This document shows, one piece after another, positions 1-60,547 of a DNA stretch of 64,000 bases; the first letter of the stretch is position 1; each line of letters begins with the position of its first letter. Made by a program: the position numbers and the translations under genes. Source of the stretch: Diplosphaera chodatii (Eukaryota > Chlorophyta > Trebouxiophyceae > Prasiolales > Stichococcaceae); the NCBI GenBank assembly GCA_032358165.1, contig JAALGY010000014.1, forward strand, positions 186,001 through 250,000, written 5' to 3'. The notes beneath the pieces were generated by a model. The model ran no database searches, was not told the DNA's origin, and worked only from the letters and a program-made list of their open reading frames with translations.

Positions 1-48
1 TGCTCTGTTTTTGCTTGCCGTCACCAAATTGTTGTCTGTGTGATGCAG

Positions 49-3000
49 GTCGGTGGCATGGTGTCCAACAACTCCTCTGGCATGTGCTGCGGCGTTAGCC
101 AGAACACGTACCACACGCTCAAGGACATGCGAGTCGTATTTGTCGATGGCACCGTCCTCGACACCGCTGACGCGGACTCGCGCGCTGCATTCCTGGAGGT
201 AAGCAAGCTTACACAGGCTATACGTTGCATGCTTTGCACGATGCCTATGCTGTCACGCCTCGACGTCCTGGGGTTGCCCATGACAACCTTGTGATTACCA
301 GCCAGCTGAAGTCGTGTTTCATTCCCTCCTGGCAGTCGCACAAGGAGCTGTGCGATGGCGTGGTCGCCCTGGCCACCGAGGTGCAGTCAGACCAGCTGCT
401 GACCAACCTCATCCGCCGCAAGTTCGCCATCAAGTGCACCACAGGTGCGCTGCTTCATTTTTGTCTGGGTTCACATGGGGTGCTGACTGCCGCTGCAGAA
501 GATGTACCAGGTTGTTCGTGCTGATCGGTCGCATCTCATACTGCAACTGTCCTCACCTTGTCAGCATGCATACAGGCTACTCGCTCAATGCACTGGTTGA
601 CTTCCCAACGAGCGACCCAATCGAGATCATCAAGCGGCTGATGATCGGCAGCGAGGGCACTTTCGGCTTTGTGGCACAGGCAACCTACAACACTGTGCCC
701 GAGTGGCCCAACAAGGTGTGGAAGGGTGGCTTGCAAGAGCAGAGCCAAGTTTACTGGCAGCTGGGTTACCTGGTCTGCTGGTGTTTTCATTGAGAACCTA
801 TCCATCGAGGGTATGTCGACTGACTCTGCTTTTTCTTCTGTGCAGTCGTCTGCATTTGTGATGTTCCCAGATGTCCACTCAGCCTGCGCCGCAGCATCCG
901 TGCTGCGCGACAACACTGCAGTGGACGCTGTGGAGATGTTCGACCGTGCTGCCCTCAGGTACACTGAGATACTGCAGGTTTCTTGCAAGAATCAGCCATC
1001 CGATGGCAGTGCTGGTCGTGCGCATGCGTATGGCAACAATCTGAACCCTTCTGACTTGTGTATGCACATTATTCAGGGAGTGCGAGATTGATGAGGACCT
1101 GAAGCGCCTGGTGCCAGACATGAAGGATGCTGGCCCCACCGCAGCTGCGCTGCTCATCGAGTGCCGTGCCAATGGTCCTGAGGGTCTCAAGGTCGGTCTA
1201 TCCTGAGCTCGGCATCCAAACACTGTGGTGCATCCGCTGTTGTTTACATTACTGTGTTACTTGGGTGGCGATCAGTCTTCCCTGAGACCTGAGACCTGTT
1301 GGAAGGTGCGTTCACAACCTTGGTGTTCTCACATGTAGGCTCGCATCAACGAGGTCAACAGTGCTCTGAACGACAGCGGCCTGCCTTTTGGAGCTCACTC
1401 AGACCAGCAAAAGGGCCTGGACAACTACCCCTTCCGCAAGGACGATGCCGAGTCCAAGGTCTTCTGGGACGTGCGGAAGGGCCTCATCCCAATCGTTGGC
1501 GGCGGTCGCGAGGCTGGTGAGTGTCGACAACGAAGTGTCTTGCGCACAGCTGCGTGTGTCAGCGCAGCATGGGAACCACCTGCTTCGATGTCCTTGTAAG
1601 CAGCAATGACGACCTCTGGGCAGCTGCTCCGATGCATGCGATGACATGTGTGAGTATGCAGTGCAGCACCTTAATGCAATGTTACCCTGCAATGCAGGCA
1701 CATCCTTCCTGATTGAGGATGTGGCGTGCCCTGTGGACAAGCTGGCAGCCATGACGACGGACCTGGTGGAGATGTTCGAGAAGTATGGGTACAAGGACGC
1801 ATCCTGCTTCGGCCACGCGCTCGAGGGCAACCTGCACCTGGTGTTCTCACAGGTGTGCGCCCGCGCTGAGCCGCAGCGTAACATCTGCTCACTGAACTCA
1901 CTGCATGGCCCTCAAAATGATGTCATGTTGCATCAGTCCCTTTGCTCAAGTGCGTCTGCGATTCGAGCGGCATTGGCGCTGCAGGGTTTCCGCACCCCAG
2001 AGGAGGTCGAGCGCTTTGGCGCCATGATGGACGAGATGTGCTACATCGTCGCCACGAAGCACAGTGGCTCCCTGAAGGTGCGCAGCAACTGTTTCATGGT
2101 TGCACATGCTCAGCTTCAGCTTCTGTGCAGCTGATGAGCTCTCACAGGCCTCATCAATGGAGCATCTCACGTGTGTTGCAGGGTGAGCATGGCACTGGCC
2201 GCAATGTGGCTCCGTATGTCGAGATGGAGTGGGGAGGCAAAGCGTACGACCTGATGTGGCGCCTCAAGTCGCTGTTCGACCCTGATGACGTGCTGAACCC
2301 TGGCGTCGTGCTGAACAAGGTGCTCCCTCTGCTCGTCAAGTCGAGTCACATGTTGCAGCCTCAACCCTGCTGATCAGGAGAAACAGGGACATCAGGATCA
2401 GTCGCTCACTTGCCGGTTTGTGAGCATGACTGTTGTTGGCATGCACCCTACTTCTACCAACACATTGTGCTGATTCTTTGCTGCAACCATGTAGGACCCC
2501 AACCTGCACATCAAGCACCTCAAGCCATCACCGGTTGCCTCGGAGATTGTGGACCACTGCATCGAGTGCGGCTTCTGTGAGAGCAACTGCCCCAGCCGTG
2601 ACATCACATTGACGCCACGCCAGCGCATCGCCTCCTACAAGGAGATGGCCCGCCTGCAGCAGCTGCCCAGCCCCACACAATCGGAGCAGCAGCGGTGCGT
2701 TCCCATTCCTTCCTGCCTTATTGTCTGGCGCCCAATGTCCTGTCAGCAGGTCTTATTCCTGATGTGTTATAGGCAGGGCTATACAATGCTATGTACTTGT
2801 GGTAGTTGTAGTACTATCTGTAGTGCCGTACTACAACTGCAGAGGCACCTGATCCGAACCTTGGTCTGCGTGGTGCACAGGCTGAAGGACTTCAAGGCTA
2901 TCTACGACTACCAGGGCGATGCCACTTGCGCCGCAGACGGCATGTGCCAGGAGAAGTGCCCCGTCAAGATCAACACAGGCGAGGTGATCAAGCACATCCG

Positions 3001-5437
3001 GTCCGAGGAGCTTAAGGAGTGGAAGCGCGCGTCCAGCGGCGCCATGGTGCGTGCCTGCTCTGTTATGATTTAGGGTTTAGGCCTAAACCCTAGAGTGCGT
3101 CGTCTCCTCTGTTTGTGTGCTGCAGGAGCTGGTCCCTGTCACACCTTGCCATCCTGTCTTTGTGGCATGGCAGAAGCAGGGCTTGCAAGCCCTCACTGCA
3201 GGCGCCGGCACACTCGTCAAGCAGTCGGAATGCCTCTTGCAAGCATCAGCACATCTTGACATCTGTTCATGTTGCCGTCCTGCAGTCACTGGCCAACAAC
3301 TTCAGCAAGCTGAACGCGATGGTGCCACCATTGCTGAACGCGGTGGACTTTGCGCACCGGCTGCTGGGCCCCACACCGCTGCAGTACATCAGCAGCCGCC
3401 TCAACAAGGCCAGCAACCACCTCATCCCAGAGTGGAACCCCTACATGCCTCGGGTGCGCAGCTCTTCACCGTGTGCATGCAGTGGGTATCTGGCGCATAA
3501 GCTTTGTAATCAATTCCTGCACCACGTTGAGTGGGTGCAGACGTGATGCATGCTGTCAAACTGCTGACTGGGAGCGATATGTTGTGTTGTGCATTCGCAG
3601 GGTGCATCCAAGCTCAACATGAACCCTCCAAAGCCCACAGCACCTGCAGAGGGCGTGCCCCGCAAGGTGCTTGCTTGTTTTGCTGATGCTGCTTGCATCG
3701 ATTGTGTCTGATCAAATTGATGTATCTTGTTTTGCATCATCTTCAGTTGTGAACACACAGCGCTGCTGGCGTGCGCAGGTGGTGTACCTGCCATCGTGTG
3801 TGACGCGCATGATGGGCCCGTCGCGTGGCGACCCCGAGTCTGAGCCGGTGCACGACAAGCTGCTGAGCCTGTTTGGCAAGGCCAACTACGAAGTCATCTA
3901 CCCCGAGGTGGGCAGCATGCCCTCTTGTTGCATCCACGCTTGCACCGGGCGCTGTTGCAGTTGCTTGCTGTCAGATACATGCAGAGTGGGCAGCTGTTGG
4001 TCCCTTGCTCGTGGCAGTGGCGCTGTGCGAGGCGAAGAGCGTGCTGATTGATACTGACTGCTTTGTTGCAGAGCCTGGGCAACCAGTGCTGTGGCATGCT
4101 GTTCAACTCGCGTGGCTTCAAGGAGGCTGCTGCTGTGAAGGCTGGGGAGCTGGAGGTGTGGCTGCCGCATAAACCTATGCTGATGTGCACGGCTTTCTCT
4201 CTTGTTTGTACAGCACCTGTGTGCCTCCTGTCTGCAGACCTGACCTGGGGCTGAGCTTGTGACTGGTGCTGTGTGCCTAACCTACAGGAGGCGCTCATGA
4301 AGGCCAGCGACGGTGGCAAGATCCCCATCGTGTGCGACACCAGCCCCTGCCTGTCGACGCTGAAGGGCGCACTGCAGACCCCAGACCTCAAGTGCGCATA
4401 TTTGTGCATTGCCAGCTTTGCGCCTGCCAGTGCAAAAGATGCATGCACCGCTGTGCCATGGCCATTAGTCAACAACCCACCCATTGCGCCCTCTCGCCCT
4501 CCCTGATTTCGATCCCAAGCAAGTGTTGACCGGTGTCGCGATGCGCAGGTTTGCGCTGTATGAGCCAGTGCAGTTCATCAAGCTGTTCCTGGCAGATAAG
4601 CTGGAGTTCTCGAAGGTGAACACAGCTGTATCAGATTTTATTCGTCAACATGTGTAAATGGTCCTGAGAGCCCTGCAGCTGCTGTTGCGGCAGTGCATTT
4701 GCACCGCCTACCGTGCTTATGCTGGGTTATGGCGATGCACAGGTCAAGCAGCGCATCGCTGTGCACGTCCCCTGCTCCAGCAAGAAGATGGGTGTGTCGG
4801 ACGCCTTCACGCAGCTGGCCGCCATGTGCGCCGATGAGGTGGTGCCCTCTGGCGTCCCCTGCTGCGGTGAGTCCCTCTGTCATGCCGAATACCTTGTCCC
4901 ATCACCTTCGCCGTCTGCATTGTGTTTGTCCCCGGCCTGCACTGTCATCAGGATGGCAGCAGTGAGCCTGATGCGTCTGCAACATGTGTGTTGAAGCGTG
5001 ACTGCAGTCCTGAGAATCAAAATCGCATTTGCAGGCATGGCGGGCGACCGGGGGATGCGGTACCCGGAGCTGACGGCGGGGGCGCTGCAGCACCTGGAGA
5101 CGTCCGGCTGCTCAGATGGCTACTCCACCAGCCGCACCTGCGAGATGAGCCTCAGCAACCACTCGGGCATCAACTTCCGCGGCCTGGTGTACCTCATTGA
5201 CGAGGTGCGCGATTGCCAGCGATATGCTGTGTGTTCCACACCAGTTGGCATGCGTCGCATGCCTGGCATGCGTTTGTCATTTGCAGAGGAGCGCAATGTG
5301 CATCAGCGTTTGCCGTTCATCACACCATCCCTGTAGCGATGTGCAAGCTGCTGCGCCTGCAGGCCACCAAGCCGAAGAAGGCAGCCAGCAGCGGCGGGAA
5401 GGTACCAGACGTACCGGATGTCACAATTGACCACTGA
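49..5437 (+). CDS. GYD1: Glycolate / D-lactate dehydrogenase, FAD + Fe-S fusion (5' partial)
   Basis: The product oxidises glycolate (or D-lactate) to the 2-oxo acid and passes electrons to a quinone; in green algae this enzyme is mitochondrial and starts photorespiratory carbon recovery. The window opens in an intron, so the N-terminus is missing. From the first exon (GGMVSNNSSGM, FAD-binding PCMH fold) the order is: FAD-oxidase C-terminal domain with GSEGTFGF, GHALEGNLH and GEHGTGRN; a 4Fe-4S motif CIECGFCESNCP (about 2560-2595); a second Cys cluster CAADGMCQEKCPV (2925-2965); then two GlcF-type cysteine-rich domains with GNQCCG (4080-4095) and a CCG motif spliced across the intron at 4868-5035 before MAGDRG. 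About 18 exons are visible and the Lys-rich tail ends at TGA 5435-5437. The GlcD-GlcF-like fusion fits algal GYD1; the bacterial D-lactate dehydrogenase family shares the layout, so substrate preference is inferred, helped by the two glyoxylate aminotransferases next door. Confidence 0.82.
2802..2840. repeat. Intronic inverted repeat (hairpin)
   Basis: Two 13-base arms, GTAGTTGTAGTAC (2802-2814) and GTACTACAACTGC (2828-2840), pair at 12 of 13 positions around a 13-base loop. The repeat sits inside the glycolate dehydrogenase intron that lies between the two Fe-S motifs. Confidence 0.8.
3069..3093. repeat. Telomere-motif palindrome in intron
   Basis: TTTAGGGTTTAG is followed directly by its mirror CCTAAACCCTA, giving a perfect 22-bp palindrome (3071-3092) centred on AGGCCT. 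The arms are copies of the TTTAGGG repeat used at plant and many green-algal telomeres. It lies in an intron of the glycolate dehydrogenase gene. Confidence 0.85.
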
Positions 5438-5698
5438 GAGCTGTCCCGCATTCATTCCCCGGCTGACGGAGCTCGGACACTTTGAAGGCAGTGGGTATCG
5501 ATTTTGGAATTGTTTGTGGGTTTGGTTCGCGAGTGCAGCGAGAAGACTACCAACCTGCCTCATCCAAGCTGGCCGGGCGTTGTGTGGGATCTTGGGGCGG
5601 GTTTCATTGTTATAATTGTGAGGTACTGCTGCTGTGCAGTGCACGGGCTGCTTTACAGGTGCAAGGATCAGGAATACTGCTGCTTTCAGTGATGCTGC

Positions 5699-5703
5699 TG
5701 TAA
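5699..5703 (+). terminator. TGTAA poly(A) signal of glycolate dehydrogenase
   Basis: TGTAA is the usual chlorophyte polyadenylation signal. This copy lies about 260 bases after the stop at 5437. Confidence 0.45.
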
Positions 5704-5757
5704 TTGGAAGACCGTCAACTGGCCAGCAGCGCTCGACCTTCACAGTAATTGCATATG

Positions 5758-5762
5758 TTACA
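5758..5762 (-). terminator. TGTAA poly(A) signal of alanine/glyoxylate aminotransferase
   Basis: Minus-strand TGTAA lies about 108 bases downstream of the aminotransferase stop at 5870-5872. Confidence 0.5.
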
Positions 5763-5869
5763 AAATAATCGAGTTGCGTTTTAACCAGCAAGCCAAGAAA
5801 CAGCAAACACACGCCAGAACAGAAGATTCTTCAAATCCCCAACATGTCGACAACTTGAAGCTGAAGCAA

Positions 5870-8800
5870 TTAGTCCTGATACTTCTTCAAGAAGCCGTTG
5901 TGGAAGTCGGACAGGTCACTCGCAACATGCTCAATGTCCTCTTCGCTCGGCAGGATGGTGGTCCTGCAAAGCAGGTGCAGAAAGGCGTCAGTGCACTCAG
6001 GCTGCACGACCCAATGCAGCTGTCAACCAGATGTGCTGCCCAGTCTATCAGTACATACACTGCATGAGCCTTGTGCCAGAGATGAGGCACACTGTCCCCG
6101 TTACCGGAAGTGGTATGTGCCGTCTGCCTGCTTGAAGCCGCTGCCTGGCACAGTCACGATGCCCTGCTCATCAGGAAAGCAGCAAAGTCTGCACGTGAAG
6201 TGTAACAGCATTGCAATGTTGCAAAATAGCGCACTCGCTGGTGCGGCTGCAAGACGGGGCAGCTGCTGTCACCTTCTCCTGGAGCAAGGCGCGGCAGTAC
6301 ATGAAGTCTGGCGACTTGCCCTCCTCCTTTGCTGCTTCCACTGCCTTCTTCGGCAGCAGCAGCTGTGGGAACACATACAGCGCACCTACGTAACAGCGTG
6401 CCACAATGTCAACCAACCTCCTACAGCAGGCCCACACACGGTTGCACTCCCCGAGGTGCTCCAGGTCCATGCAACAGCAGGGTGCAAGCAAAGGCGGCAT
6501 CCAGACAGACAGCACGAAAGGTGGGGGAACACGGTGGCAGGCAGGGCGCGCACCCTCAGTGGGCTGGCAGGAGATGCCGTCCAGCTTGTTGAGGGCGTCC
6601 ACCATGATGACGGCGCGCCGCTTGAGGCTGCCCAGCACCGAGTCCCGCTCCCTCTCGTACAGCTCGCACGACTCCTCCCCAGACTGTTGCACCAAACATC
6701 ATCATCACAGGCCAGCGAGACGGCATCCCACGCAATAGGTAGGGAGCTCAAAGTCTGCATTGCACATGGTAACGTGTGCGACAGTCACCAACGGTTTGCA
6801 GCTCAAACAGTTATGACTGCAAAATCGCGAGGCACATGCGCATCGCATGCTGCACCTTGGGTGGCTTCATGACGAGCGCCATGACGATCTGGCCGCCAAG
6901 GTTGGAGCACAGGTTGATGGAGGCGCCCTTGTACAGCTGCTGCTGGATCTCGTCACTCATGTTCACGATCTCAAAGTACCTGCACAAGCACAGCGTGCAA
7001 GAGGTTCACTCAAGTTGCTTGATGTAGGGTGACACAGCACGATTCAGTACGCAGCGCAGCATGCTGTCAGAGACAGGGCAGCAACCAACCCTAAACCCTA
7101 CACCCACCCGCCTCGTCGGCCGCACTCCCCAAAGAATCCCTTAGAGGTAGAGTTCATCGAGACCAGAGGCACATCACTCTTGAGGTCCCGCACGATCTTC
7201 CTGAAGCTGTTGAACTCCTTGCCGGCTGCATAGATGTTCGTCTGGGAGACAACAGAGCAGAACATTGGCAAGGTAGCATGGCATCTGGTGGCCGAGGTCC
7301 GTCAGGCGTTGTGCATTCACACGTGTTGTGCATACACGTGCGAGCTAGATGGTCACCTGGTAGACTTCATCTGCAATCAAAACCATGTTCTCCTCCTCAC
7401 AGAACCGTACGATGTCAACCTGTAGGTGACACGCAGCAGTGAACAGGGAAGTGTGCTGACACTGATGCCATCATGTGACGTGCTCATGCAGGTAACCTGC
7501 CTGTGCAGCAGAAGTGCAACTGGTGCCATCACGCGCACCTGGTTGCCCTTGGCCAGCACGCCGCCGGTGGGGTTGCCCGGGTTGATCACCACCAGCGCCC
7601 GCACCGTCTTTCCGTCTGCCTTTGCCTGTGGACGTGGCAGACCCATAGTCGGCAGCGGCAGGGCGAGCGGGATGCGAGATGGTTGTGCGGTTGACACTGC
7701 AAGCAGCCAAAGATGTGCCCAAATTGCGCACCTTCTTGGTCTGCTCCCGCAGGTGCGGGATGCTGAGGCCCCAGTTGCTCTCCTCATCCAGGTAGTAGGG
7801 CGCCAGTGTGGTGCCGTGCAGCGCCAGCGCCGCTGAGTACCTGCCGTGTGAGCTCAGCAATGACTCAGGTAAATGGGTTACATGGACGGCATCTTGCATA
7901 CCCGCACATACAGCAACACGCCAATCTTCTTTGGTTGTACTGTTTACGTTTGATCGGTCTATGATGCCATGCACGCGCGCCTGTGCTCACGGATATTGCA
8001 AAGCACAAGTGGGGGTCATCAACGAGTGGGGGTCGCGCACAAGGGGTACTGCGGGATGGGCGTCAGGAAGGCGTCGTCGCTGTTGCGGGTGAGGAGCTCG
8101 ATGACGCGGTGCACGCTGGGCGACGCGCCGTCTGTCATAAACAAGCAGTTGGTGTCGACGGGATGCCCGTCCCTCTCCTCCATACCCTGCGGCGACAAGC
8201 ACGCCAGCCTGCTGTGTGCATGGCCGAGTGGCTGGCACATTTGCCACATATGCACCCAACCATCATACTAGGGTTACAGACCTGTGCAATCTCCTCCCGG
8301 AACACCATGGCACCCTGCGACTCTGTGTATGCGCCGGTGCTGCCAATGGCGTCCAGATACTTGCGTGCACGCGCCACAGCGTCCTTCGGAAAAATTTTCG
8401 CAGCATTTGGGTCGTCCAGCAGCTGCAGGGTGGGCGTGAAGCGCTCATTTTAGGTCGCAGTACGAGCTCGTCATGCAGGTGAGAACACTGCGGCTGCTAA
8501 TCAGATTGAGTGACAGTCAGGCATGAGGCTCTATGCCGATTTGATCTTGGAGATGCACTCACCTCGGGGTAGTCGCACAGCGCCAGCACTTGGCGGAAGA
8601 AGGTGATGGGCTGCTGGCCCAGTGCCTGGGGGTTGCCGATGTTGCACATGACCACCTTTTTGAATGGAAAGGACTTGCCATCCTTCATCTCCTTCTGGAT
8701 GTTCTGCGCCATCGCCACGATCTCGCCTCGCACTGCACATTGCTGAGGAACAACTGTCGGCCTGTCCTCTAGCAGATCGTCGTGCTTACTAACACATCAC

Positions 8801-9172
8801 AGTGCCTCATGCTCGCCACCGCAGCATCAAGCAGCGTGTTGCTGCATTACTGCTGTGTGTGCACATGCAGCATTGCATGCTGCACTTTATCTGGCACTTT
8901 ATCTGGCAGCATCTCCCATGACGACATTCACGCTTGGCTTCTTGAAGCAAAGAATGCCAGTATAGATCATTCAGTACTACTGATGTGTTGTTTGCTCGCA
9001 AGCAAACGTTGGCAAGCTTTGCCTAATGCATGCAACATACATGAATATGCATAAGCCTTGCGACACACTTGCCTGCATACTGTGCTGTAACGAGGTTCGG
9101 CGAGATGTTGTCGATTGTGATGGGCCAGGCGGGCTTTGCTGCGACCTTCTCCACCTCTGCTGTGGTGACCAT
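5870..9172 (-). CDS. Alanine / glutamate:glyoxylate aminotransferase
   Basis: This is a class I PLP aminotransferase of the alanine aminotransferase/GGAT family; it would transfer amino groups from alanine or glutamate to glyoxylate, giving glycine. The rebuilt protein (about 480 residues) starts at the ATG at 9172 (MVTTAEVEKV) and contains QYAVRGE, NIGNPQALGQ, FMTDGAS, IPQYPL, INPGNPTGG, IADEVYQ and the catalytic-lysine loop STSKGFFGECG RRGG (near 7100-7150). It ends LSDFHNGFLKKYQD with TAA at 5870-5872. These blocks match plant GGT1/AlaAT throughout, with no frameshift. The first intron has a GC-AG border. The gene is divergent from the AGXT-type gene and convergent with glycolate dehydrogenase. 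No clear presequence is visible, so its compartment (mitochondrion or peroxisome) is open, and AlaAT versus GGAT preference cannot be read from sequence. Confidence 0.93.
7087..7100. repeat. Second short telomere-motif stretch
   Basis: AACCCTAAACCCTA is two tandem copies of CCCTAAA in an intron of the alanine/glyoxylate aminotransferase. It also contains a plant 'telo-box' core (AAACCCTA). Confidence 0.75.
8733..9072 (-). other. GC-AG intron 1 of the aminotransferase
   Basis: On the minus strand the exon ends ...TATGCAG and the intron opens GCAAGT; the next exon opens TGCGAGG after TGTGCAG. Joining gives Y-A-V-R-G-E, the exact sequence conserved in plant GGAT, so the GC donor is required by the protein. 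Confidence 0.85.
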
Positions 9173-9682
9173 GCTGTGCAGATGTCTGTAGGTTTGGGAA
9201 GATGCAAATGAGCTGTCTGCGCCCAACAGCTGCTGGCGCGGGACGAGCTGTGCGAGGCGCAGCTGTCGTCGGCACGCGGCGATCAACATGCACGGCTTGC
9301 GGTTTGCCACGCACCCAGAGCAGTGCTGGGCATGTGACTGGCTGCCACATGCTTCGGTTATCGCTGCAATCGAACTGCGAGTCCCGCTGGGAACCCAGCA
9401 AACCTTCGGCCCCGATGTGTGGCGCATCGGTGTGTACGCAAAACAATGCCCAACATAGGCCCAGCCGCCGTAATCGATCCTGCAAATCGGCTTGCAGTCT
9501 ACTGTGGCTAGATCCCGCGGTGCACGGCCGCCTGGGCCTCCACCTTGTGGTTGAGGTTGGGGTGTTGCGAAGGTGAAGTGCGCTTGCTCGACCCGAAGTA
9601 GGGTGCGGATCGCTGGGCGCCAGGCCACAGGATGTCCAGACGAGCGGTCGCCCAGCGGCTGTTTGCCCAAGGGCAGACATGC
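9173..9682. promoter_or_regulatory. Shared divergent promoter of two glyoxylate aminotransferases
   Basis: Only 510 bases separate the start codons of the alanine/glutamate:glyoxylate aminotransferase (minus) and the AGXT-type aminotransferase (plus). No protein-coding exon is convincing here. No TATA box is obvious. Co-regulation of the pair is inferred from the layout only. Confidence 0.6.
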
Positions 9683-12111
9683 ATGCGGTCGCTGAGCACC
9701 ACACCCCAGCTGCAAGCTCCACTGGGCCGACCAGGCGAGGACTGCCCGTCCATCAGCAACAACCACCAGGCAGCGCTGAACGGCAAGATGGTGGTACGTC
9801 TTGGGCTGTAGTGCGCGCCGATCACGATGTCCGGTTACCTATGTACTCCATGCATGATCTGCGCGCAACACGCAACATGCCGCTCATGCGTGCAGTTCAA
9901 GGTCACGAGGCTCTCACATGTGCAGGTGCCCGAGCGGCTGCTGATGGGTCCGGGTCCCAGCAACGCTCACCCTGCGGTGCTGGCAGCACAGTCGCTGCCG
10001 CTTCTTGGTGCGGTCAGAACCATCCCACGCAAGGCCCGGAGCCCTTGCACGTTCTTGTGCAACCGTTCCGGGGCAAAAAGGGTGCACAGCCAACCAGATG
10101 CTCCCTGAGTGCGACAGCACTGTCTGCACAGGACACCTCCACCCGCCGTTCCTGAAGATCATGGACGACATTCAGGAAGGCCTGCGCTACACCTTCCAAA
10201 CAGACAGCAAGTACACCTTGCTCGTGACCGGCACAGGTGATCAGGCTTGTTGAACTGCAGCTGAACCTAATGTGGAGCGGCTGTCGTGTGTTCGGTGAGG
10301 CGCCATTGGGTCGATCTGCATGAGTGTGCACAACTGCAGGTCACAATGGTATGGAGACCTGCGTTGCCAACCTGCTGGAGCCGGGAGAAAAGGTCGTCGT
10401 TGGCAACAATGGCATCTGGGGCAGCCGCGTGGTGGACATGGCAGGCCGCTACAATGGTGAGTGTACCTCAGGGCTTTTGCACACGCTGTCATGGTGATGC
10501 CTGGCAGAGTTCGGCCCAGCAGCACAGCAGCTCATGCTGACTATGTGTGATTGACTCAACAGCGGACGTCGTCAACCTCGAGTGTGAGGGAGGCCGCGGC
10601 TTCACATACGACGAGCTGAAGACCGCTGTGGAGACGCACAAGCCAGCCGTCCTGTTCCTGTGCCAGGTGGCCGCCTCATCACGGCTGGCGGGCTTTCACG
10701 CAGATGCAGAGACCGAGGGTCCTCACACGCACATCACGATTCCGACGCACCTTGTTGAACTGCCATCGCAGGGCGAGTCCAGCACCGGCGTGCACCAAAA
10801 CCTCTCGGGCCTGGGCGAGCTGTGCAAACAGCACGGCACGCTGCTGCTGGTGGACACCGTGTGCACGCTGGGCGGCGTGCCGCTGTATGCCGATGCGTGG
10901 GGCATCGACGCCATCTACTCCGGCTCCCAGAAGGTCCTCGGCGGGCCGCCAGGTGCACATCCACGCACTACAGCCACATCGATACGCTGCCAGCTGACTA
11001 GCACGTCATGCTGCCACGAACGCGGGATGTTCGTTGCGGAAGGACAGAAGGATCTCACCTTGCCACAGGCGCCGCGCCGCTGTTCCTGAGTGAGCGGGCC
11101 CTGCAGAAGATCCTGGACCGTAAAACGAAGCCCGCGACGTATGCGATGGACCTGAACCTTGTGGGCGACTACTGGGGTGAGCAAAGAGAGTTTGCATGCC
11201 TGGAATGCTGCACTCCGTGAGCCTGTTCTTGGAAGGCCTCAAGTCGCACAGTGGTTTCTGACCAGCATGCTGCCCATACCACAGGCTGGTTTGACAAGCG
11301 CTTCTACCACCACACTGGCGCAGTGTCCACCTGGTGAGCATGGCTACACAGTTGATGGTGGTCAGCACGTCCACTGAGGGAGCAGTTGGCATTAGCGATG
11401 TAACTGCATCTAGGGAGGCGTCACTGCGGGTTGCCGGTTGCAGGTACGCTATGCGGGAGGCGCTGGCCATCACGACGCGGCAAGGGCTGGAGAAGCTTTG
11501 GGCGGACCACAGGGCGTGCCACGAGCAGCTGTGGGCCGGCCTGTCGGAGATGGGTGAGCCGGATGAGATGCAGTCGGTACATGCCATGCCTCCTGGTGCT
11601 CTGTCCTTGAGGTTTGAGCAACAAACACACGTGACATATTTACCAACGCCTCCTGCTGGTCGCCTGAAGGTCTTGAGCCGTACGTGGAGAACCCAGACGA
11701 GCGGCTGGTCACCGTCAACACCATCAAGGTTTGCGCATGTATCCTGCAGCATTCCCTCATGTGACGTGATGATGTCTCATGCACAGCGGCTTTCCTGACA
11801 GGCTGCTTGCTATTGCATCGACAGATCCCAGAGGGTGTGGACTTTGCCGCGGTGATCAAGAATGCCATGGACGTGTACAACGTGGAGATCTCAGGGGGCC
11901 TGGGTCCGAGCATCGGCAAAGTGTGGCGCGTCGGCATCATGGTAATGTCGTGGTTTACACGATTGAAGACGGCTGTTGAACTGCCAAGCTTCTTGTCTGT
12001 TTTGCTGACTCCAATTATGTTGTGATGCAGGGGCACAATGCTCGTCCTGCCAACATTGCCATCGTGCTGGAGGCTTTCAGAGATGGGCTGAAGAAGCAGG
12101 GCAAGCTATGA
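9683..12111 (+). CDS. AGXT-type alanine/serine:glyoxylate aminotransferase
   Basis: This PLP aminotransferase (class V fold) would convert glyoxylate to glycine with alanine or serine as donor. The chosen start, MRSLSTTPQLQA (9683), gives a 36-residue N-terminal extension that ends NGKMV at a GTACGT donor and splices to VPERLLMGPGPSNAHP. Ordered blocks follow: DDIQEGLRYTFQT, TGTGHNGMET, GNNGIWGSR, GESSTGVHQN, LLVDTVCTLGG, the PLP lysine in SGSQKVLGGPPG (about 10918-10952), and a GGLGPSIGKVWRVGIMG block near the end. TGA is at 12109-12111. It resembles animal AGXT more than plant peroxisomal AGT1. The short Ser/Thr/Arg N-terminus could be a mitochondrial presequence, which would fit glycolate oxidation in mitochondria, but this is inference. 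The C-terminus KQGKL is not a canonical SKL. Confidence 0.93.
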
Positions 12112-12303: not shown

Positions 12304-14055
12304 CTATGTATCCTGTGCCGGGGACTTTGGTAGCTGTACCTTTTCTGCCACCTGAATGATGAGCTGTTCCAGCTTGGCACCGTTCTCCATCATACCATCG
12401 TACCTGCGAAGGAGTCAGAAGCAGCAACCTCCACCATTGCCTCAGCTGACAATTCGTGTTACACCCTGACGCAGGCACCCAACAACTGGCACGCAGAACA
12501 CCAGAGTGCAGTGCAGGCCTCACTTGACGACGGCAGCGGCAAGCGCGCCTACGATGCCAACCGTGACGAGCAGCTGCACCAAGAACAGGGGCGGGCCGTG
12601 GCGCTTGGACTTGCGCTTGTCCACCGGCGCACTCTGCTGCTGAGCCTGCCACCGGCCCACGACAGCGGTTGCTCGTCGAGACAATAGTTTGTAGCATAAC
12701 CTTGCTGTCAATGGGCAGACTGAATGCATCGATGCGAGTTTTACTGAGCGGCTGCTGCACCTGCTTCGCCGGGCGGTCCTTGGTGTCCTGCAGTATGGCG
12801 GTCTGCTTCTTTTCCGGCTCCACTGCAGAAAAGGGGCTCGGCTTTGACTCCGACTTGCTTGTGTCCTGCAGCAGGCACGCTGAATGAGTCAGCGCCATGA
12901 CGCTGACCCACTGCAACACCTGCATGAGCCAGTGTGCAAATGACTCAAGTAGCACTTATGTAGTGGTGAGTACAGTGGTGAGTACAGTCACCTTGACCAA
13001 GTCATCCCAGTTGAAGCCCTGCGCGCTGCCGGCAGCGTCCTCTGTGCTGGGCGCTGACAACGCTACGTTCATCTGTATGACGGGTGCTGTTGCCTGCTTG
13101 CTGGCGGCACCCGGCGCAGGCACCGGCACCACCGGCGACTCGGTCTTTGGGACATCCTTTGGCGACGAGATGCTCGGACCAGGCGGCGGCTGCACTGGCT
13201 TGGTGGGGATGCTAAACTTGGGTGACTCTGGCATCGACGATTTTGGCAGCTCTGGTGCTGGAATCTTTGGCAGCTCGGGCTTGGCTGATGCCGGTGTCGC
13301 AGCCCCCGTCCTCAGCTGCGGCTGCTCTGGCTTGACACTGAAGAAGGACAGGCCGCCTGCTGTGTCGACGTCGCCGCTGCCGCTGGTGCTGTCTGAAGGC
13401 GCAGACTCTCCGTTGCCCGCCAGCTCACCTCTGCTCAGGGCGTTCTCCCGCCTGCCGACCCAAGACCGCGAATCGTTGAGCATGCCGTTCGAGCCTTTCA
13501 AGCAAGGCCACCACACAGAGCCTGGGCGGGCGCTCACGCTCTGGTGAGAAGGGCTTTGCGGCGCTCGTTCGCAGCAGAGCGCTCTTGCGACGCCGACATG
13601 CCTGCCTGTGTGTGTGCAACATGACGGTGAGCACACGCAGTGAAGCGATAGTGCTGTATCCCACTCGCTGGTCGTGTGCATGCACAACCGTACGCACGTC
13701 ATCATCGGCCAACGCAGGCTGCAGCAGCTGCACATTTGGCGGTGCGATACTGATGCCGGTGCTGAGCACCACGGCAATCAGCGCCGCCTTGCCTGCTTGT
13801 TGCACGCTACCCTGCACAATGTTTACTTCGTGTCAGGGAAACATGTTGACAGAGTGAGACACAGGCGATCATGCACCTAAGCGCGCCATGCATGCATGTT
13901 GCAGCAATGCAGCTGACCTTCAGCACTGCCAGAGGCTGTGCAGAAACAACGTGCAGGCTGTTCCGGTTGACCCAACTTCTTGCTTGGGTCCTGGTCGATC
14001 TGAAGCTTTGATGCAGATTCTGGTGCACATTGCAGTTCAGCAGTTGAGTGGCCAT
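12304..14055 (-). CDS. Probable thylakoid-targeted proline-rich membrane protein, unknown function
   Basis: I do not recognise a family. The start MATQLLNCNVHQNLHQSF (14055) opens a Ser/Arg/Asn-rich, acid-poor segment like a chloroplast transit peptide. It splices in phase to GSVQQAGKAALIAVVLSTG...QPALADDD, a hydrophobic stretch ending in Ala-x-Ala before acidic residues, as in thylakoid lumen transfer signals. A charged exon (QERSAANERRKAL) and a long Pro/Ser/Lys-rich linker with repeated PELPK, PESPK and PTKP motifs follow (about 13400-13100). Near the C-terminus a basic stretch (DKRKSKRHG) precedes a single membrane helix, FLVQLLVTVGIVGALAAAVV (about 12530-12590), then a short helical tail ending SPAQDT (TAG 12304-12306). 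A bipartite-targeted protein anchored by one C-terminal helix is my inference. The middle exon borders (13400-13620) are uncertain. Confidence 0.6.
12962..12988. repeat. 12-bp tandem repeat
   Basis: AGTGGTGAGTAC occurs twice in tandem (12962-12973, 12974-12985) plus three further bases, at the 5' end of an intron of the minus-strand gene. Confidence 0.8.

Positions 14056-57452: not shown

Positions 57453-60547
<3,095 letters not shown>

Follow-up and report, generated by a model that had tools for sequence, protein, structure and literature searches.

A five-gene cluster for photorespiratory enzymes in Diplosphaera chodatii, and a second copy in which two of the genes lack all introns

Analysis of a 64,000-bp stretch of the nuclear genome of the green alga Diplosphaera chodatii (the window; contig JAALGY010000014.1, here C12, positions 186001-250000, in an assembly of 85.6 Mb in 55 contigs) showed that it opens inside a cluster of five genes, in the order HPR(-), SGAT(-), GYD(+), GGAT(-) and AGXT(+). 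The cluster spans 18.9 kb (C12:179168-198111), and its products are assigned by homology to photorespiration. A second, diverged copy lies on another contig, C32, where GYD and GGAT have lost all of their introns and the other three genes have kept theirs. We consider it highly probable that this is an old cluster for part of mitochondrial photorespiration, in the second copy of which GYD and GGAT were replaced on cDNA templates. The initial annotation, made from the window, described a cluster of three genes (GYD, GGAT and AGXT). These three genes are real; the description was incomplete in that it mentioned neither the presequences, which are visible in the window, nor the upstream genes, nor the intronless second copy. 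Its proposal to look upstream of base 1 yielded two more photorespiration genes, SGAT and HPR.

The exon models were drawn up manually, guided by splice sites and homology, and were then checked against the intronless frames on C32. GYD, a putative fused FAD/Fe-S glycolate dehydrogenase of 1126 aa in 23 exons, occupies window positions 1..5437 (+ strand) with exons 4-23. Window bases 1-48 are the end of its intron 3, exons 1-3 precede base 1, and the predicted ATG lies ~1.3 kb before base 1 at L008:8704 (C12:184704). GGAT (5870..9289, - strand; 528 aa, 13 exons) and AGXT (9632..12111, + strand; 424 aa, 12 exons) each begin with a mitochondrial-like presequence. Before base 1 lie SGAT (L008:8460-5883, - strand; 466 aa, 10 exons) and HPR (L008:5413-3168, - strand; 420 aa, 9 exons). 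The spliced models of GYD, GGAT and AGXT give full-length proteins with no internal stops. Those of GYD and GGAT are independently verified by single open frames on C32 that match all 34 exon junctions, and that of AGXT by projection onto C32 only (equal length, stop-free). GGAT intron 1 (window 9073-8732) has a GC-AG boundary; the remaining introns of the five models are GT-AG.

The spacers of the cluster measure, in order, 469, 243, 432 and 342 bp. The HPR ATG lies 469 bp past the SGAT stop. SGAT/GYD and GGAT/AGXT form two head-to-head pairs, with 243 bp and 342 bp (9290..9631) between predicted ATGs, respectively, and GYD and GGAT stand tail to tail with 432 bp from stop to stop (5438..5869; 424 bp on C32). 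The head-to-head orientation of GGAT and AGXT had been recognised from the window, with starts placed 510 bp apart; the orientation stands, and the distance is shorter because both models extend further 5', into presequences that the second copy also retains.

By homology, GYD would convert glycolate to glyoxylate, GGAT and AGXT would aminate glyoxylate to glycine, SGAT would turn serine and glyoxylate into hydroxypyruvate and glycine, and HPR would convert hydroxypyruvate to glycerate. Five genes of one pathway in a row make a chance coincidence implausible: on a rough estimate, which assumes a genome of some 12,000 genes with ~15 in the pathway (neither figure measured), its probability would be well under one in a billion. 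In the manner of a eukaryotic pathway cluster, the adjacent genes are non-homologous; SGAT and AGXT fall into different subfamilies of the class V aminotransferases.

The enzyme names given to GYD, GGAT and AGXT stand by homology. GYD joins a GlcD-like FAD part to an Fe-S/CCG half in one protein (domains PF01565, PF02913 and Fer4_8). It is 67.5% identical to Chlamydomonas GYD1 (CHLRE_06g288700) over a 1050-column alignment and shares with it the order of the CIECGFCESNC and CCG motifs; its closest named relatives among the best 120 matches are those of Myrmecia bisecta (74%) and Coccomyxa (73%), as would suit a trebouxiophyte-like alga. GGAT belongs over its full length to the class I/II alanine aminotransferase family (barley alanine aminotransferase 3tcm, 582 bits; 3ihj, 450 bits), and a six-frame search found its copies in the genome on C12 and C32 only. 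By homology it is an alanine/glutamate:glyoxylate aminotransferase, with a putative preference for glyoxylate over pyruvate as amino acceptor. AGXT is a full-length class V protein of the animal/cyanobacterial type, which matches the alanine-glyoxylate aminotransferases 2huf (414 bits) and 1vjo (403 bits). Among solved structures, SGAT is nearest to 6pk1, a serine:glyoxylate aminotransferase of the Arabidopsis (plant) type (425 bits, with 152 for the chain ranked second), and not to AGXT-type enzymes. HPR contains both D-2-hydroxyacid dehydrogenase domains (PF02826, 159 bits; PF00389, 65 bits), and its best solved relatives are glyoxylate/hydroxypyruvate reductases (glyoxylate reductase 2dbq, 210 bits), consistent with HPR1.

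The N-terminal 30 residues of all five proteins contain 4-5 arginines, 0-1 lysine and 0-1 acidic residue, and these presequence-like N-termini are kept in the C32 copies. Such arginine-rich, mitochondrial-like presequences predict mitochondrial import of all five enzymes. In Chlamydomonas, a mitochondrial dehydrogenase converts glycolate to glyoxylate (PMC8320531), and gyd1 mutants show raised glycolate excretion (PMC12174325; all papers cited here are drawn on for part of their text).

Linkage in other green algae was read from locus tags and equal-sized contigs in three protein searches (GYD, SGAT and GGAT; best 120 matches each), and for each pair of genes the count took in those named genomes that had a contig listed in both tables. 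Equal contig size was taken as the same contig, and multi-member protein clusters may carry another member's value; tags need not follow contig order, and GGAT matches may include paralogues. GYD and SGAT share a contig in 4 of 13 named genomes (Chlorella vulgaris, Nannochloris, Apatococcus and Symbiochloris), with consecutive tags in Chlorella vulgaris (D9Q98_005775/005776) and Nannochloris (g09647/g09646). Auxenochlorella was omitted from this count, as its two matches stem from different assemblies; four more contigs (13,245, 51,067, 104,581 and 323,881 bp) appear in both tables. GYD and GGAT share a contig in 8 of 10 genomes, at tag distances of 6 in Micractinium, 28 in Gonium, 54 in Volvox and 334 in Tetradesmus, and also in Symbiochloris, Elliptochloris (170 kb), Myrmecia and Pedinophyceae; the two genomes in which they do not are C. 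eustigma and Edaphochlamys. SGAT and GGAT are found together in 4 of 11, namely Coccomyxa elongata (consecutive tags g1801/g1802), Micractinium conductrix, Chlorella sorokiniana and Symbiochloris, and not in the other seven (Myrmecia, Pedinophyceae, Volvox, C. eustigma, Edaphochlamys, Astrephomene and Monoraphidium). In Symbiochloris, the contigs of GYD, SGAT and GGAT all measure 444,206 bp.

We infer that the linkage is old, mostly retained in the algae that we take to be trebouxiophytes and looser or lost in those that we take to be Chlorophyceae, and that it would have been broken up in Chlamydomonas and its relatives. Chlorella vulgaris, Nannochloris, Coccomyxa elongata and Symbiochloris resemble D. 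chodatii in that GYD adjoins SGAT, or SGAT adjoins GGAT, or the genes share a contig. They differ in that their linkage was read for GYD, SGAT and GGAT tags only, whereas the five-gene cluster is demonstrated only here.

The second copy of the cluster has the same gene order, on a contig that is collinear, in reverse, with C12:156,001-250,000. Synonymous divergence (Ks) between the copies is 0.241 for SGAT, 0.237 for GYD, 0.299 for GGAT and 0.216 for AGXT, with overlapping bootstrap intervals, and Ka/Ks is about 0.04. On C32, GYD is one 3384-nt frame, 94.3% identical to the C12 coding DNA, with 22 of 22 introns absent, and GGAT is one 1587-nt frame, 93.2% identical, with 12 of 12 absent. In the full alignment, all 34 introns are missing exactly at the splice sites with zero residual bases, and the sole indel between the copies in the coding DNA of the two genes is one codon in the GYD presequence. 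The introns of SGAT (9/9), AGXT (11/11) and HPR (8/8) are all retained on C32, each with GT..AG ends. The full-length frames and the low Ka/Ks argue for functional genes on C32. The two copies of the cluster may be homeologs in a hybrid genome or haplotypes that have diverged strongly.

A scan for precise gaps, covering 73.8 kb in aligned blocks of the 94 kb, found 33 gaps in C32, of which 32 lie inside GYD or GGAT, and one in C12; the scan sees breaks between blocks only, and it overlooked two GGAT introns that are absent in the full alignment. The one precise difference of reverse direction in the region is a ~112-bp intron-like piece on C32 that is absent from C12 near window position 13216 (window 13202-13481, C12:199202-199481).

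Three origins of the intronless genes were rejected. Bacterial contamination of C32 is contradicted by its collinearity with C12 across 94 kb. Gene conversion of C32 from C12 in the recent past does not fit a Ks that matches the neighbouring genes, and because of this match the intronless genes are regarded as C32's own and not as recent copies from C12. Intron stripping of a whole chromosome set does not agree with the restriction of the loss seen in the aligned blocks of the region to GYD, GGAT and one gap, nor with reverse differences, in which intron-like pieces are absent once in C12 and twice in contig C18.

The precise loss of 34 introns from whole genes in either orientation, with intact frames and low Ka, points to recombination with cDNA. 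The convergent inner genes GYD and GGAT would have been replaced as reverse-transcribed copies of their own mRNAs recombined homologously with them, in one or two events; since Ks equals that of the neighbours, each copy was probably replaced by its own cDNA. Published work names the precise removal of adjacent introns as the mark of recombination with reverse-transcribed mRNA, and high expression as its predicted correlate (PMC2395259, PMC3652778). Such loss, with the reading frame preserved, is found here at 34 of 34 junctions. The losses described in Cryptococcus (PMC2395259) and rodents (PMC3652778) are alike in that precise loss of adjacent introns is explained by cDNA recombination; unlike in those cases, all introns, those at the 5' end included, are gone here from two neighbouring genes on opposite strands, in one of two homologous copies. 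The allodiploid hybrid Auxenochlorella UTEX 250 is comparable, being a trebouxiophyte that combines two diverged sets of chromosomes with efficient homologous recombination (PMC12636532). It is a different alga, and whole-gene intron loss between haplotypes is not mentioned in the available part of that text.

Among the best 120 matches, the closest GGAT from outside this genome, P0241 (93%), lies on a JGI contig of 5464 bp, a size close to that of intron-free GYD, spacer and GGAT together; the contig may represent intronless DNA or a transcript that joins the two convergent genes.

Intron loss from one of two copies was also seen elsewhere in the genome. The contig pairs C1/C51, C46/C49, C18/C7 and C27/C26 were picked because one copy is intronless, and so give no rate; only C12/C32 was chosen independently. 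The gene names mitochondrial SHMT, NFS1, GDC-T and ATP synthase beta subunit used for these pairs are our reading of the sequences, and the GrpE and class V aminotransferase (NFS1-like) families were assigned by domain match. SHMT and its divergent neighbour GrpE are intronless on C51:80617-83790 and intron-rich on C1:1981706-1988644 (16 and 8 gaps). An NFS1-like cysteine desulfurase is one frame on C49:1155945-1157558 and intron-split on C46:944117-946921 (8 gaps, one of inconsistent strand). Nine introns of GDC-T are absent on C7:1469301-1472300 compared with C18:1620301-1623800, and 12 introns are absent on C26:2716501-2719500, compared with C27:1527201-1531200, from a gene of the ATP synthase alpha/beta family that encodes a mitochondrial-like presequence.

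Beside the SHMT/GrpE pair, a third gene, on the minus strand, has also lost three intron-like pieces (C51:74612-74938 compared with C1:1975186-1976006). The neighbour of GDC-T on the other strand has two intron-like pieces on C7 that are absent on C18, so the intron differences run both ways.

GDC-P and the other SHMT pair (C21, C32) have introns in both copies, the GDC-H domain lies in a single open frame in both copies, and the HSP70 pair C47/C15 is open in both. In a Cpn60/TCP1 control, no intronless gene was seen among 113 matches (87 of 134 candidates scored; longest 149 of 490 positions; ~11 pairs). A further HSP70 pair (C10:506470-507907 and C37:205147-207921) is open on C10 over positions 1-330 (C10:506470-507468) and split into several exons on C37, perhaps through partial intron loss on the 5' side.

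A wider joint reading of these cases is speculative, and we think it doubtful. Whole-gene replacement by cDNA would be active in this genome, above all in genes for abundant mitochondrial proteins (GYD, GGAT, SHMT, GDC-T, NFS1 and the ATP synthase subunit), sometimes taking neighbours together and affecting both chromosome sets. GYD and GGAT would then have been replaced by a single joined double cDNA across overlapping 3' ends, and the intron-free copies kept for faster induction at low CO2. SHMT and GrpE are divergent and do not share 3' ends, so overlapping 3' ends cannot be a general cause of neighbouring losses. This is one of several points that weigh against our account; the others are given with the alternatives considered below.

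The most serious alternative, which we regard as possible though not probable, is that the clustering is historical, with an ancestral order kept by inertia and no regulatory meaning. Algae with GYD and SGAT on separate contigs or chromosomes still possess the pathway, and linkage at tens to hundreds of tags, as in Gonium, Volvox and Tetradesmus, resembles slow decay. GYD and SGAT are not on one contig in 9 of 13 named genomes (Myrmecia, Pedinophyceae YPF-701, Volvox reticuliferus, Chlamydomonas eustigma, Haematococcus, C. reinhardtii, Edaphochlamys, Sanguina and Scenedesmus NREL). The initial annotation had looked to gene order in relatives for support; partial linkage in several green algae is in its favour, and the separation in these nine genomes and the scattered genes of Chlamydomonas are against it. 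The C. reinhardtii set (GDH Cre06.g288700, SGAT Cre01.g005150, HPR1 Cre06.g295450, AGT1 Cre06.g294650 and AAT Cre10.g451950; PMC8320531 Table 2) falls by its locus numbers on chromosomes 1, 6 and 10, with three of the five on chromosome 6. It shares with D. chodatii the enzyme names, the mitochondrial oxidation of glycolate to glyoxylate by a dehydrogenase (predicted in D. chodatii), and AGT1, AAT and HPR1 as matches by name; it differs in its spread over three chromosomes, with no cluster mentioned in the part of PMC8320531 at hand, compared with one 18.9-kb cluster here. Chlamydomonas, moreover, co-controls its photorespiratory genes without clustering (PMC8320531, PMC12174325).

The cluster also leaves out part of the pathway. 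GDC-P, GDC-T, GDC-H and SHMT were placed by whole-genome family searches on other contigs or far off (the searches did not extend to phosphoglycolate phosphatase or glycerate kinase), so the cluster covers the glycolate, glyoxylate and hydroxypyruvate steps and excludes the glycine-to-serine step. Against inertia, pairs with consecutive tags are still found in Chlorella, Nannochloris and Coccomyxa. In addition, the GGAT/AGXT upstream region is 88.9% identical between C12 and C32 over ungapped columns; the SGAT/GYD region reaches 80.3%, and identity in the 20 introns of SGAT and AGXT is 53-83%. This higher identity suggests that the GGAT/AGXT region is a shared, constrained candidate bidirectional promoter. 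Co-regulation of the five genes is a prediction: the two short divergent promoters, at SGAT/GYD and at GGAT/AGXT, would switch on the enzymes jointly at low CO2.

An assembly artefact, in which RNA-seq polishing or gap filling removed the introns of highly expressed genes from C32, appears unlikely. Genes of the affected kinds are often highly expressed. Exon-junction sites differ between C12 and C32 at 3 of 170 positions in the intronless pair and at 0 of 140 in the genes that keep their introns (no significant difference between the two sets, Fisher p 0.25), the rate elsewhere being ~6%; so few changes fit either a recent loss or, less likely, an artefact, and are a further point against our account. 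Such an artefact does not sit well with an all-or-none pattern per gene, in which 34 of 34 introns are lost while three neighbouring genes of the pathway keep 28 of 28, nor with a C12 partner, 93-94% identical in coding DNA, that retains every intron. Beyond GYD and GGAT, the 94-kb comparison (73.8 kb aligned; scan not exhaustive) contains one precise gap in C32 and one in C12, and 55 contigs for 85.6 Mb suggest that long reads were used.

It is improbable that the fused dehydrogenase acts mainly on another 2-hydroxyacid, such as D-lactate or D-2-hydroxyglutarate, and that the cluster is not photorespiratory. Several sources among the best 120 matches label the family D-lactate dehydrogenase, and in NCBIfam the glcD model (157.8 bits) scores about the same as D-2-hydroxyglutarate dehydrogenase YdiJ (157.0 bits), both far below their cut-offs. 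Among the matches listed, no NCBIfam model exceeded its cut-off for the four proteins tested, and the shortfall for GYD and SGAT also counts against our assignment. The best model for SGAT was aspartate-glyoxylate aminotransferase BhcA (471 bits; cut-off 650), and serine as its donor is putative. Orthology to GYD1, at the identity given above and with mutants that excrete glycolate (PMC12174325), suggests glycolate rather than D-lactate as the substrate of GYD, and the four neighbours come from families that act on glyoxylate, serine or hydroxypyruvate.

A gain of 34 introns in C12, starting from an intron-poor ancestral state, is very improbable, for it has nothing in its favour beyond the copy difference itself, Chlamydomonas GYD1 has introns (PMC12174325; polarity for GYD only), the flanking genes hold 28 of 28 introns in common between the copies, and 34 gains within a Ks of about 0.24, with zero in the neighbours, would not be parsimonious.

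No title describing a photorespiratory gene cluster, or whole-gene intron loss in algae or homeologs, was found in the open-licence literature among the matches listed. As far as these searches go, the five-gene cluster and its paired intron-stripped copy are new; the enzymes and cDNA-mediated intron loss are known. Algal photorespiration has mostly been studied gene by gene, and a physical cluster offers candidate shared promoters; a cluster partly common to other green algae is also a simple marker of pathway history. The intron-stripped twin provides a natural setting in which to test what shapes gene clusters and introns. If real, matched intron-containing and intron-free GYD and GGAT in one genome would allow the role of introns in expression and in the CO2 response to be measured directly, and would be unusually complete cases for testing the cDNA model of intron loss.

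In the surroundings of the cluster, 20 of ~93 conserved coding pieces were scanned with Pfam and contained no further photorespiration family (14 without a match, six of other families), although small or divergent members could escape such a scan. Downstream, outside the cluster, a zinc-binding dehydrogenase-like coding piece (PF00107) lies on the minus strand at window 58662-58814.

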